A stretch of 32,431 nt of DNA, taken from positions 1 to 32,431 of the forward strand of contig JADLBQ010000007.1 in assembly GCA_020847635.1 (NCBI GenBank), written 5' to 3'. Of this stretch, positions 15,265-19,177 are shown in pieces. The translations under genes and the position numbers were made by a program. The notes beneath the pieces are model-generated. The model was not told where the DNA came from. It searched no databases and was given only the letters and a program-made list of their open reading frames with translations. Origin of the DNA: Bacteroidia bacterium. GTDB lineage: Bacteria; Bacteroidota; Bacteroidia; AKYH767-A; OLB10. Positions within the stretch are counted from its first letter, which is position 1. Every line of letters begins with the position of its first letter.

Positions 15265-16365
15265 ATGAAAAGGATCCTACTGTTAACTGCTTTTTCAGTA
15301 TTGGTTTTTCCATTTTCTGCTTATTCACAGGCTATACCTGTCATCCTCAGGATCAATTCGCAGGACCAACACGATACTCTCGGCTATAATCTCGTTACTG
15401 CACTGACATCAGAAGTGTATAATCTGATTAATTCACAGCAAGTGAAACTCTGGGATAGTCCTGAAAAGGAGATTTATATTAATGCATCCTCTGTTCACCA
15501 GATTGAACGTGCATCTGGTGTTTCATTCCTTTCCCAGAGTGTGATTTTTATTTATGAACGTTGGGAAAAAACACGATCTGGAATCAACAGTCAGACAATT
15601 GGAATGAAGTTTTCGGCTCTTGATGAAAAGAACCAGGAGGTATCGTTTGGTTTCCTGGACTACAATGATGTTAGTAATCATTTCATGAGAGCACGACTAC
15701 CGGTGAATGCAAATGGTAATTACGAAACTTCGTTTGCTTATGTATTACTGAAAAAACAATATGCCTTCAATTTGTTGCAGTTTGGCCCGAAAACAATTAC
15801 TTCCGGAGGTACAGCTCGTGAATTATTGGCTGATTATATGAATAATCTGATCTTTAATCCGACAATTACAGCACCCGAGTATTCTGAGAAACTCATTGAT
15901 TACCACATTGATTTTTCAAGGTCGCCTTCAGATGAGAAAGCCGGTAATGCCAATAAGCTGCTGGCAGCAATTGAGTTATTTCTCCAAAACAATGAAGAGA
16001 TTTTCTATAACCTGGGTGGCGATAAGATTTTGAACTATTTCCGTAAGGGAAAAATCAGAGTTACCTGCATGGAAGTAAAAGAGTTCTGGAAGAATTATAA
16101 TAATCAGATTTCTACTGATACAAAAAACATTCAGATTTATGTAAATGACAGCACTTTAAGTCCGGTTTCATTCTCTGACTTTCTGATGTGGGGCATTCAG
16201 ATTGGTGATGAGTCCATGCATGAAGTATTTAAAGACAAAAACTTCGCATTTACAATACGGAGAATCAATGAAATGGATATTCCGAAAAAAAATGCACACC
16301 TTTACCTGAAAGCATTATATTCAATTGAATGGAATAAAATTACAGAGTTTGTAAAATACTATTAA
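15265..16365 (+). CDS. Exported protein of unknown function
   Basis: I do not recognise a family for this 366-aa protein. Residues 1-22 form a signal peptide (KRILLLTAFSVLVFPFSAYSQA), with no lipobox Cys, so a soluble periplasmic or secreted product is expected. There is no T9SS sorting domain at the C-terminus. The mature part is mixed alpha/beta, with a long charged segment around 210-280 and an aromatic-rich end. It has its own strong Bacteroidota-type promoter immediately upstream, so it is probably transcribed independently of DUF1015. Its TAA at 16363-16365 directly abuts the stop codon of the convergent ogt gene. Coding status is supported by length, signal peptide and promoter. Confidence 0.75.
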   Translation: MKRILLLTAFSVLVFPFSAYSQAIPVILRINSQDQHDTLGYNLVTALTSEVYNLINSQQVKLWDSPEKEIYINASSVHQIERASGVSFLSQSVIFIYERWEKTRSGINSQTIGMKFSALDEKNQEVSFGFLDYNDVSNHFMRARLPVNANGNYETSFAYVLLKKQYAFNLLQFGPKTITSGGTARELLADYMNNLIFNPTITAPEYSEKLIDYHIDFSRSPSDEKAGNANKLLAAIELFLQNNEEIFYNLGGDKILNYFRKGKIRVTCMEVKEFWKNYNNQISTDTKNIQIYVNDSTLSPVSFSDFLMWGIQIGDESMHEVFKDKNFAFTIRRINEMDIPKKNAHLYLKALYSIEWNKITEFVKYY

Positions 16366-16867: not shown

Positions 16868-18097
16868 TCAACTTACTTCAAGCAGGTGTCCCATCTTAAC
16901 TTTCTTAGTCAACAGGTAGTTTTTATTGTATTTATTTGGTTTGATCCTGATTGGAATATTTTCAACAATTTCAAGACCGTACCCGATCAATCCTGCTCTC
17001 TTTTTTGGATTATTCGTCATTAGTTTCATCTTACTTACACCGACATCCCTCAGAATCTGAGCCCCGATCCCATAATCCCGTTCATCCATTTTAAAGCCAA
17101 GCTTCACATTTGCCTCAACGGTATCCAGTCCTTTCTCCTGGAGTTTATACGCTTTAAGCTTATTAAGTAAACCAATCCCCCTACCCTCCTGGTTCATGTA
17201 AACAATTACACCCTTACCAGCTCTTTCAATCATTCTCATTGCTTCATGCAACTGAGGTCCACAATCACAGCGACAAGAGCCAAAAATATCTCCGGTAAGA
17301 CAGGATGAGTGAACACGTATCAGTACAGGTTCATTTTTTTTCCACTTTCCTTTAATCAGTGCAAGGTGATCTTGTCCGGTATTGATTTGCTTATATGCAA
17401 TCAACCGGAAATTTCCATAATCAGTCGGGAGTTGGACTTCAACCTGTCGCTGAATCAGACTCTCCTTAGTTAACCGGTAGGCAATCAGATCTTCAATTGA
17501 AATAATCTTAAGTTTAAACTTTCGGGCAATCTTGATCAGATCATTTAACCGGGCCATACTGCCATCAGAGTTCATTATTTCAACCAGCACACCAGCCGGC
17601 TCAAATCCTGCCAATACTGCCAGATCAACGGCTGCTTCAGTATGTCCTGCTCTTCTCAGTACACCTCCATCCTGGGCTCGAAGTGGGAAAATATGTCCAG
17701 GTCGTCCCAAATCAGAAGGCTTAGTTTTCTGCTGAATTAGAGCCTTAATGGTTTTTGACCGGTCTGATGCCGAGATACCTGTTGAACAACCTTGCCCCAG
17801 CAGATCAACCGAAACAGTAAAAGCAGTGCGGTGTGATGCAGTATTTCTCTGAACCATCATCTCAAGCTGAAGTTCCCGACATCTGTTTTCTGTCAATGCT
17901 ACACAAATTAATCCTCTGCCGTTGGTTGCCATAAAGTTCACGACTTCTGTTGAAGCAAAACGTGCCGGAATAATGAAGTCACCTTCATTCTCACGGGCTG
18001 CATCATCAACAACAATTATCATTCTGCCATTTTTCAGGTCAGTAAGTGCTGATTCAATTGTATTCAGCTTAATCTTCCTATTAGTTCTCACATCCAT
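16868..18097 (-). CDS. ribBA: Bifunctional 3,4-dihydroxy-2-butanone 4-phosphate synthase / GTP cyclohydrolase II
   Basis: This supplies both precursors of riboflavin, from ribulose 5-phosphate (RibB part) and GTP (RibA part). At 409 aa it has the usual fused length. The RibB domain (about 10-205) shows the acidic metal/substrate loop [11 protein letters not shown] at 31-41 and the HTEAAVDLA block near 152. The RibA domain (about 207-400) has the zinc cysteines Cys266, Cys277 and Cys279 in [16 protein letters not shown], and the NQEGRGIGL motif. Both active sites look intact. The start is the ATG at 18097. A TAACTTTG -7-like box lies 11 nt upstream. I found no FMN riboswitch in the upstream region. 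ogt follows on the same strand. Confidence 0.96.
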
Positions 18098-18108
18098 TAA
18101 TTAAAATG

Positions 18109-18116
18109 CAAAGTTA
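18109..18116 (-). promoter_or_regulatory. Probable -7 box of ribBA
   Basis: On the minus strand the sequence is TAACTTTG, an exact TAnnTTTG match, ending 11 nt before the ribBA ATG. The nearest upstream TTTG (18144-18141) is 24 nt away, longer than usual, so only the -7 part is convincing. It predicts a very short leader with no room for a riboswitch. Confidence 0.4.
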
Positions 18117-18320
18117 ATTCATACTCCAGGAGAAGTATTTCAAAGACAGACAGAGGAACCGAAACACTGATTTTTAGACATATTGAGGCAGAATCTTACA
18201 GATTTAAACTATTTTCAGTTAAAACCGAACCCTTATCAGATACCTGCGTTTAACTACTCAAATCAGAATGGATATTTTAATCTGATTACGTTCATTACTA
18301 GAAGGAGTTTAGGTTGGAAC

Positions 18321-18355
18321 AGGGAGGGCTGCCCCGTAAGGCAGCCGGGCTCCCT
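18321..18355 (+). repeat. CCGTAA-loop hairpin repeat, copy 1
   Basis: The stem is AGGGAG (18321-18326) plus GGCTGCC (18327-18333), paired with GGCAGCC (18340-18346) and CTCCCT (18350-18355). Only a GGG bulge (18347-18349) interrupts the 13 pairs. The loop is CCGTAA (18334-18339). The preceding 45 nt or so resemble those before copy 2 (ATTA, AAGG, TTTA, GGTTG and AGG at comparable places), so the repeated unit appears larger than the hairpin. No T-run follows, so it is not a classical terminator. Confidence 0.85.
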
Positions 18356-18416
18356 AAACAATCTTCGCTATACCATTAATGATAAGGTTTAATTTTTTGG
18401 GTTGATTCAGGTAGAA

Positions 18417-18438
18417 GGGCTGCCCCGTAAGGCGGCCC
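18417..18438 (+). repeat. CCGTAA-loop hairpin repeat, copy 2
   Basis: GGGCTGCC (18417-18424) pairs with GGCGGCCC (18431-18438) around the same CCGTAA loop (18425-18430). The A of copy 1 is replaced by G at 18434, which keeps a U-G pair in RNA read from the plus strand but would be a mismatch in minus-strand RNA. The loop lies 91 nt after that of copy 1. Confidence 0.85.
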
Positions 18439-18482
18439 GGATATCTGATCAGAACAGATTCTAAAGAACTTTTCAATAAACC

Positions 18483-18512
18483 TTGTTTTATGTTTTTGCC
18501 TTTCTAAGTTTA
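18483..18512 (+). promoter_or_regulatory. Possible rlmE promoter: TTG-N19-TAAGTTTA
   Basis: TTG at 18483-18485 and TAAGTTTA at 18505-18512 are 19 nt apart, the right spacing for a Bacteroidota promoter, with one mismatch in the last base of the -7 box. The start site would fall near 18518, exactly at the first base of hairpin copy 3. Moderate support only. Confidence 0.35.
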
Positions 18513-18517
18513 TCCAT

Positions 18518-18535
18518 GCTGCCCCGTAAGGCAGT
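18518..18535 (+). repeat. CCGTAA-loop hairpin repeat, copy 3
   Basis: GCTGCC (18518-18523) pairs with GGCAGT (18530-18535; the outer pair is G-U) around CCGTAA (18524-18529). The loop is 99 nt after that of copy 2 and 49 nt before the rlmE ATG. Its upstream flank is less like those of the first two copies. It lies just after a possible promoter (18483-18512), so it may form the very 5' end of the rlmE mRNA. Confidence 0.8.
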
Positions 18536-18577
18536 TCTTTTTGTATTTTTCCGTCTCATGCAAACCAGCTTGAAAAA

Positions 18578-19177
18578 ATGGCTTACCAACCCAATGACTA
18601 TTATTCAAAAAAAGCAAAATCAGAGAACTTTGCTGCCCGTTCTGTTTACAAGCTTGAAGAAATTAATAACCGATACAGGCTAATCCATAAAGGGGATCAT
18701 GTACTTGATCTGGGTGCTTCGCCTGGTTCCTGGTCACAGTATGTTTCAAAGCTGATTGGCATTAAAGGTAAAATTTTCGGAATTGACTTAAAAAAGGTTG
18801 AAATCAACCTGGAAAATACTGTCTTTATTCAGGGCGACATTGAAGCTTTTGACTTTGAAGAAGCTTTCCGCATACATGGTTTCACGTTACCTTTTGATGT
18901 AGTTATTTCTGATATGGCACCGGATACCACCTCAAACCGCTTTACTGATCAGGTGCGGTCTTTTAATTTATGCACATTGGCACTTGAGGTTGCAATCAGA
19001 TACTTAAAACCAGGTGGCAACTTTGTCTCTAAAATTTTTGATGGACCGGATGCCATGAAATTCGGACAAGAACTTCGGCAGTATTTTAGTACAGTTCATC
19101 CGGTAAGACCTAAAAGTATACGTAAAAGCAGTAAAGAATTTTTCTTTGTTGCAACCGGGTTTAAAAAGGCATCCTGA
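18578..19177 (+). CDS. rlmE: 23S rRNA (uridine-2'-O)-methyltransferase RlmE/FtsJ
   Basis: This methylates the 2'-O of a uridine in the 23S rRNA A loop (U2552 in E. coli) late in 50S assembly, using SAM. The 199-aa protein shows the SAM motif VLDLGASPGSWSQYVS and the catalytic K-D-K-E tetrad: Lys25 (VYKLEEI), Asp112 (SDMAPDT), Lys152 (VSKIFDG) and Glu187 (SSKEFFF). The start ATG at 18578 precedes the usual SENFAARSVYKL region by about 14 residues. Upstream lies the three-copy hairpin array, which may form part of its leader. Only 8 nt separate its stop from the convergent methyltransferase stop. Confidence 0.95.
   Translation: MAYQPNDYYSKKAKSENFAARSVYKLEEINNRYRLIHKGDHVLDLGASPGSWSQYVSKLIGIKGKIFGIDLKKVEINLENTVFIQGDIEAFDFEEAFRIHGFTLPFDVVISDMAPDTTSNRFTDQVRSFNLCTLALEVAIRYLKPGGNFVSKIFDGPDAMKFGQELRQYFSTVHPVRPKSIRKSSKEFFFVATGFKKAS

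Follow-up and report, generated by a model that had tools for sequence, protein, structure and literature searches.

CCGUAA-loop hairpin arrays in Bacteroidia very probably include a small regulatory RNA gene located back-to-back with ribBA

The window, i.e., the whole stretch of DNA analysed here, comprises 32,431 nt of a Bacteroidia bacterium (assembly GCA_020847635.1, contig JADLBQ010000007.1, positions 1 to 32,431 of the forward strand). Three hairpins with the loop CCGTAA are situated between a ribBA gene on the minus strand and an rlmE/FtsJ-type methyltransferase gene on the plus strand. Further upstream, at 15265-16365 on the plus strand, a 366-aa protein without Pfam match is encoded downstream of a DUF1015 gene. 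The features of the hairpin locus and its surroundings are the following.

16868-18097, minus strand: ribBA (DHBP synthase / GTP cyclohydrolase II; Pfam PF00926 and PF00925), the conserved divergent neighbour
18108-18116, minus strand: -7 box of the ribBA promoter, TAACTTTGC (consensus TAnnTTTG)
18228-18253, plus strand: predicted ECF-sigma-type promoter with -35 AAC at 18228-18230, a 16-nt spacer and -10 CGTTTAA at 18247-18253
18258-18550, plus strand: predicted small RNA gene, about 290 nt from promoter to terminator, non-coding (stops in the frames, variable module spacing), with a fold z of -3.3
18261-18287, plus strand: 5' hairpin of the predicted RNA, AATCAG/CTGATT (MFE fold)
18308-18355, plus strand: module 1 with linker TTTAGGTTGG, outer stem AGGGAG/CTCCCT (18321-18326/18350-18355), inner stem (18327-18333/18340-18346) and loop CCGTAA (18334-18339), from sequence match and MFE fold
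18397-18448, plus strand: module 2 with linker GGTTGAT, outer stem TCAGGTA/TATCTGA (18407-18413/18442-18448), inner stem (18417-18424/18431-18438) and loop CCGTAA (18425-18430), from sequence match, fold and covariation over 25 family modules
18518-18550, plus strand: copy 3, an intrinsic terminator with the same loop, stem 18518-18523/18530-18535, loop 18524-18529 and tail TCTTTTTGTATTTTT
18578-19177, plus strand: rlmE/FtsJ-type methyltransferase gene (Pfam PF01728), outside the element

Exact matches to the 14-mer CTGCCCCGTAAGGC occur at 18329, 18420, and 18519 of the plus strand, with loops starting at 18334, 18425, and 18524 and spacings of 91 and 99 nt, as given in an earlier sequence-only reading of this DNA. 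These three are the only occurrences in the genome (2.58 Mb, 94 contigs), and the reversed control has none. With one mismatch allowed, the 12-nt core GCCCCGTAAGGC has a single extra site in the whole genome versus four for the control. In approximately 0.35 Mb of the genome (the window and 20 contig stretches), no CCGTAA hairpin with C-G closure and at least 6 bp of stem exists besides the three of the array. The genome-wide search for the core that had been proposed as a check hence returned one locus with three copies and no dispersed set. Like the array, REP/BIME palindromes are short, intergenic and sometimes tandemly arranged, but they occupy many genomic sites. A REP-like dispersed repeat, which the sequence-only reading had considered, was rejected, since many unrelated intergenic sites would be expected for such an element instead of three copies at one locus. 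Furthermore, no CCGTAA hairpin with a stem of at least 6 bp was found outside arrays in 1.1 Mb from three array-bearing genomes, which argues in these three genomes against both a dispersed repeat and a generic terminator cap.

In the family of the window (f1), the repeated unit has a GGTTGAT linker followed by two stems, outer and inner, with an internal loop between them; the inner stem carries the hexaloop CCGTAA. The upstream sequence said to be common to copies 1 and 2 (GGTTG..CAGG.., each with an outer stem) was recovered, and both reported stem wobbles, U-G in copy 2 and terminal G-U in copy 3, hold. For 25 modules of the family (alignment A3), 97.5% of the cells are paired, versus at most 44% for slid structures, and covariation amounts to 0.398, versus 0.171 +/- 0.016 for shuffled alignments and at most 0.11 for slid structures; in seven pairs both sides change. 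The two species of the genus have different sequences in each of the three inner stems, and pairing is kept throughout, e.g., module 1 of the sister species (G001) reads GCAGCC/GGCTGC, a paired swap. Stem substitutions are thus paired while the loop CCGUAA stays fixed, and covariation above the level of shuffles, the second check that had been proposed, is present among homologues.

Due to the excess of internal G-U over A-C pairs in f1 (14 vs 4) and the terminator T-runs that follow on the plus strand, the RNA is assigned to this strand. The corresponding count over all families (34 vs 25) includes pairs beyond the true stem and is uninformative outside f1. The proposal of an RNA element read from the plus strand is therefore in good agreement with compensatory changes, G-U excess, and T-runs alike.

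Copy 3 (GCTGCC-CCGTAA-GGCAGT) is followed by TCTTTTTGTATTTTT and was scored as an intrinsic terminator, so that the earlier statement that no T-run follows the hairpins is wrong for this copy. At the same place, the sister species G001 carries a 12-bp terminator as orthologue of copy 3. On the opposite side of the array, the motif AAC-N16/17-CGT, the usual form of promoters recognised by ECF sigma factors, precedes the first hairpin in 16 of 21 genomes (mean of the shuffles 0.74, maximum 4 in 300 shuffles); it is missing from five genomes of the family. Since the promoter zone was picked after the motif had been seen, the ranking over all 4096 triplet pairs is the fairer measure, and AAC/CGT is the most frequent pair at that spacing in this zone. 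ECF-type promoters with a CGT -10 box have been reported for the phylum (PMC9723704). From the position of the promoter we infer a transcription start near 18257-18260, and together with the terminator an RNA of about 18258-18550 is predicted.

The RNA of the region 18258-18560 (plus strand) folds better than 100 out of 100 shuffles (z = -3.3). Several relatives carry, as judged by eye, a hairpin of different sequence at the position of the 5' hairpin, and the RNAs of f1 mostly contain 2-5 hairpins each. A coding function was rejected, given that the reading frames are broken by stops and that the modules are spaced by 91 and 99 nt. Between ribBA and the predicted promoter (window 18181-18260) a DNA motif, TCTTACAG/CTTACAA, recurs in many relatives and may represent a regulator site.

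A covariance model of the module (R1; E-values of this model and of the class-wide model R2 are rough) was searched in 24 genomes of the family and detected the module in 21 of them, at one locus each. A 22nd genome (G013), missed by R1, was recognised by eye from exact-loop hairpins at ribBA. The locus was fetched for 20 relatives, and in every one of them the array is the immediate upstream neighbour of ribBA, in divergent orientation. The order contains a second family (f3) in which nine genomes likewise carry, divergent to ribBA, a two-hairpin form whose second hairpin is a terminator with the same loop. The linkage to ribBA was examined in the order of the window and in a few other members of the class. 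G003 lacks an array at ribBA; four near-identical 63-bp tandem units representing paired CCGUAA hairpins are found elsewhere in this genome (L182:3392-3650, G003:C22), as if the array had moved.

In the sequence-only reading the array had been suggested to be a cis-acting leader of rlmE, i.e., an attenuator sensing the state of the ribosome or rRNA. In the window's genus the array is indeed situated shortly upstream of the rlmE start on the same strand, with the same gene order in G001, but adjacency to rlmE is restricted to this genus, the CCGTAA hairpin is absent from 12 rlmE loci of other genera, and the array remains with ribBA. As the gene following the array is convergent, on the opposite strand, in 14 of 19 relatives, a role of the array as leader of this gene is ruled out; moreover, rlmE itself is preceded by a terminator, copy 3. 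A leader function for rlmE is therefore unsupported, and we regard it as scarcely credible. That the array is a conserved structured RNA of the plus strand and not an rlmE leader can, on the other hand, be held with high confidence.

In 19 of 21 genomes a TAnnTTTG box, which is the Bacteroidetes -7 consensus (PMC9723704), is located at a distance of 12-76 nt from where the ribBA match starts, and due to this proximity to the start codon the ribBA mRNA should not include the array. A ribBA leader on the minus strand, to which the T-runs, the G-U pairs, and the -7 box of ribBA are all contrary, was rejected. The FMN riboswitch model RF00050 has no match in the window, and the array points away from ribBA. 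A regulator of the divergent gene, acting by antisense or by interference of the back-to-back promoters and tied to flavin supply, would account for the pairing with ribBA that is fixed in two families, and a cofactor theme is conceivable, with a second f3 locus by a cobalamin-riboswitch operon and arrays of family f8 after a panB-like gene. However, with the ribBA -7 box at 18108-18116 the two transcripts should not overlap, no preferred pairing with the ribBA mRNA was detected, arrays of other families were encountered at other loci, and that of G003 is found elsewhere. Such a regulator is thus considered very unlikely. Pairing of the RNA with the start regions of ribBA or rlmE was rejected as well, because duplex energies are no better there than elsewhere in those genes.

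Comparison among the relatives shows the RNA strand, stems, fixed loop, single locus, and divergence to ribBA, as well as the independence from a leader role for the next gene. At the level of sequence, the general characteristics of trans-acting sRNAs are present, namely a predicted promoter and terminator, no conserved ORF, and no tie to the downstream gene. Very probably, the array represents a separate small regulatory RNA gene arranged back-to-back with ribBA.

No named RNA family had been recognised in the sequence-only reading, in agreement with the Rfam searches. At gathering threshold, the 4227 models of Rfam 15 matched only two tRNAs in the window and left the array unmatched; 16 array loci gave a single, unrelated cobalamin riboswitch and six phage loci gave no match. 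A permissive threshold yielded nothing but snoRNA-type chance matches (E above 1) over the array region. A description of a CCGUAA hairpin array was not found in searches of open-access papers.

Two loops spaced by 12-42 nt were matched in 50 of 395 Bacteroidia genomes. Since the reversed control pattern also matches about 30 genomes, inspection of the hairpins and not this tally carries the class-wide claim. True stems were found on inspection of loci in f1, f3, f8, f13 (some genomes), f25, f39, f45, f49, and f62, i.e., in at least nine families, with 2-13 CCGUAA hairpins in each of the arrays at other loci. In case of f13, for which a 12-mer control was equally frequent, only genomes with several real hairpins were kept. 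Five matches of a linker-loop pattern outside f1 were rejected as chance matches, there being no hairpin at these sites. In approximately 67 sampled genomes of other classes of the phylum the array pattern was absent. Many of the compared genomes are metagenome-assembled, and absence according to the class-wide model R2, which scored 13 candidates per genome, is weak evidence. The ribBA-adjacent RNA very probably belongs to a class-wide set of CCGUAA-loop RNAs in Bacteroidia that had not been described before.

The longest arrays, with 12-13 CCGUAA hairpins separated by A-rich spacers, were observed in f62 (L189:3404-3790, L273, and L274). In f3 a second conserved CCGUAA RNA with three hairpins occurs (L191:3217-3290 and L192:3140-3215 of G028 and G025), which in L191 is close to a cobalamin riboswitch.

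In f8 and f39, where a coding gene immediately precedes the array, the latter may represent a 3' UTR instead of a separate RNA. At L178:3298-3600 and its homologues in G158, G217, and G188, several hairpins start about 50 nt past the stop codon of a putative panB gene, named by eye, and the last one is terminator-like, so that the whole looks like a 3' UTR array. The f8 arrays follow such a putative panB gene. Apart from arrays, single CCGUAA-capped terminators follow ordinary genes in several families (L118:1520-1550 of G353, L170, L169, L155, and L175).

A two-hairpin form is also real in at least seven large viral contigs (L362, L338, L290, L308, L327, L346, and L392), while most of the single matches listed in the viral scan are due to chance. 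The element is located at 1965-2030 of L362 and on the minus strand of L338 at about 1290-1382, in both cases flanked by the reading frames of a capsid-like gene and a PhoH-like gene. These phages are T4-like. Flavobacterium phage immuto has a capsid gene with the annotation Gp23 to which L362 aligns, and this cultured phage carries a UUCG terminator at the equivalent place. The position of the phage element after the capsid gene and the UUCG terminator of the cultured relative fit a plain 3'-end or terminator role.

These observations bear on the possibility that CCGUAA hairpins are a 3'-end module capping terminators and 3' UTRs, which would protect ends or slow decay and of which the ribBA-divergent RNA would be one carrier. 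The last hairpin is usually a terminator, and the arrays directly behind coding genes in f8 and f39, the phage form, and the isolated capped terminators of several families are consistent with such a module. Against it stand the mentioned lack of hairpins outside arrays in 1.1 Mb of three array-bearing genomes, copy numbers of up to 13 per RNA, which are far beyond the need of a terminator, and the RNAs of f1 and f3 that have no upstream coding gene. As a general explanation we consider this improbable. Rho-independent terminators with UUCG or GNRA loops resemble the array in that its last hairpin terminates, but the array differs from them by the hexaloop CCGUAA and by the internal position of most copies, which lack a U-run.

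Among 204 hairpins (110 distinct), collected with loops of the form [CT][CT]GTAA only and thus without rarer variants, e.g., CCATAA, 192 have the loop CCGTAA and 12 have CTGTAA. Counted from the loop, pair 1 is C-G in 105 of the 110 distinct hairpins, pair 2 is C-G, U-A, or U-G in 106, and pair 3 is a purine-pyrimidine pair (G-C, A-U, or G-U) in all 110, the reverse orientation never being observed. The recognised unit over these 110 distinct hairpins, as read from the sequences, is RYC-CCGUAA-GRY. Due to the exchange of C-G for U-A at pair 2 (TCCCGTAAGA), the loop is taken to be a CCGUAA hexaloop closed by C-G. The GNRA-type turn suggested in the sequence-only reading is not supported, as the variants with U-A at the second pair fit a hexaloop and not a GUAA tetraloop closed by CC/GG. 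The fixed orientation of the stem pairs suggests a constraint of the kind that a bound protein would impose.

For the same RNA, trans-acting base-pairing with mRNAs through the C-rich loops (CCCCGUAA) or the unpaired linker (UUUAGGUUGAU), each copy offering an identical seed, has to be weighed. It would suit an independent RNA with predicted promoter and terminator whose conserved unpaired parts are loop and linker, and characterised sRNAs of the phylum pair with mRNAs (GibS and FopS, PMC11697453; predicted for Rfp18, PMC9723704). However, the fixed orientation at pair 3 counts against antisense pairing by the loop alone, which needs no such constraint on adjacent stem pairs; the linker is limited to one family, whereas the loop is class-wide; the start regions of ribBA and rlmE gave no preferential duplex; and the 8-mer CCCGTAAG, searched on both strands, is not enriched in three sampled genomes. 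Base-pairing is therefore judged unlikely, though less so than the 3'-end module.

Preference is given to an RNA with multiple protein-binding sites, resembling CsrB, as the moderately supported mechanism. A stress-type ECF sigma factor would drive rightward transcription from the predicted promoter at about 18228-18253, and the third hairpin would terminate it. Acting in trans, the RNA would present its repeated RYC-CCGUAA-GRY hairpins to an RNA-binding protein and either assemble this protein on itself or titrate it off mRNAs, as CsrB, with a motif unrelated to this one, does to CsrA. The sponge step is suggested by the repetition of the motif and the constraint on stem orientation. As a whole, an ECF-controlled trans-acting sRNA presenting one hairpin in several copies to a protein, as sponge or platform, is our leading candidate, to which we give slightly less than an even chance. 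The genome encodes one RRM protein, which is a candidate partner and no more.

Among known systems, CsrB, CsrC, RsmY, and RsmZ of the gammaproteobacteria are similar in being separate non-coding RNAs with many short hairpins that share one fixed loop motif, with stems, spacers, and copy number varying between species, and with a terminator end. Their loops, however, contain GGA and are bound by CsrA/RsmA, whereas the array has CCGUAA/CUGUAA loops with defined closing pairs and occurs in another bacterial class. The array RNA is accordingly not a member of the CsrB/RsmZ group and may only be a functional analogue. To our knowledge, most Bacteroidia lack Hfq and CsrA.

GibS and FopS of Bacteroides thetaiotaomicron, which are bound by RbpB (PMC11697453), are sRNAs of the same phylum ending in intrinsic terminators. 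FopS consists of a single-stranded 5' seed and one terminator hairpin and has no tandem CCGUAA hairpins (PMC11697453); it is deposited in Rfam, where the array is unmatched. The comparison with these sRNAs, which are characterised by the GibS R1 seed in a single-stranded 5' region plus a terminator, covered Rfam matches and architecture, and the architecture differs. Rfp18 of Flavobacterium psychrophilum, compared by its description, is a conserved intergenic sRNA of the phylum with multiple stem-loops and is predicted to pair with protease mRNAs via the third of them (PMC9723704).

Little is known about post-transcriptional regulation in Bacteroidia, and a function has been assigned to few of their small RNAs. 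The searchable RYC-CCGUAA-GRY hairpin, occurring across families and related phages, offers a direct way towards the putative RNA-binding protein and its regulon, and arrays can be annotated in many genomes for which Rfam has no model. It is tempting to speculate that a Csr-like circuit extends over the Bacteroidia, in which RNAs with 2-13 such hairpins would serve as platforms or sponges for a dedicated RNA-binding protein, and phages would carry the same hairpins behind the capsid gene, perhaps to tap or block it; we regard this as possible, but more doubtful than the sponge or platform role of the ribBA-divergent RNA itself.
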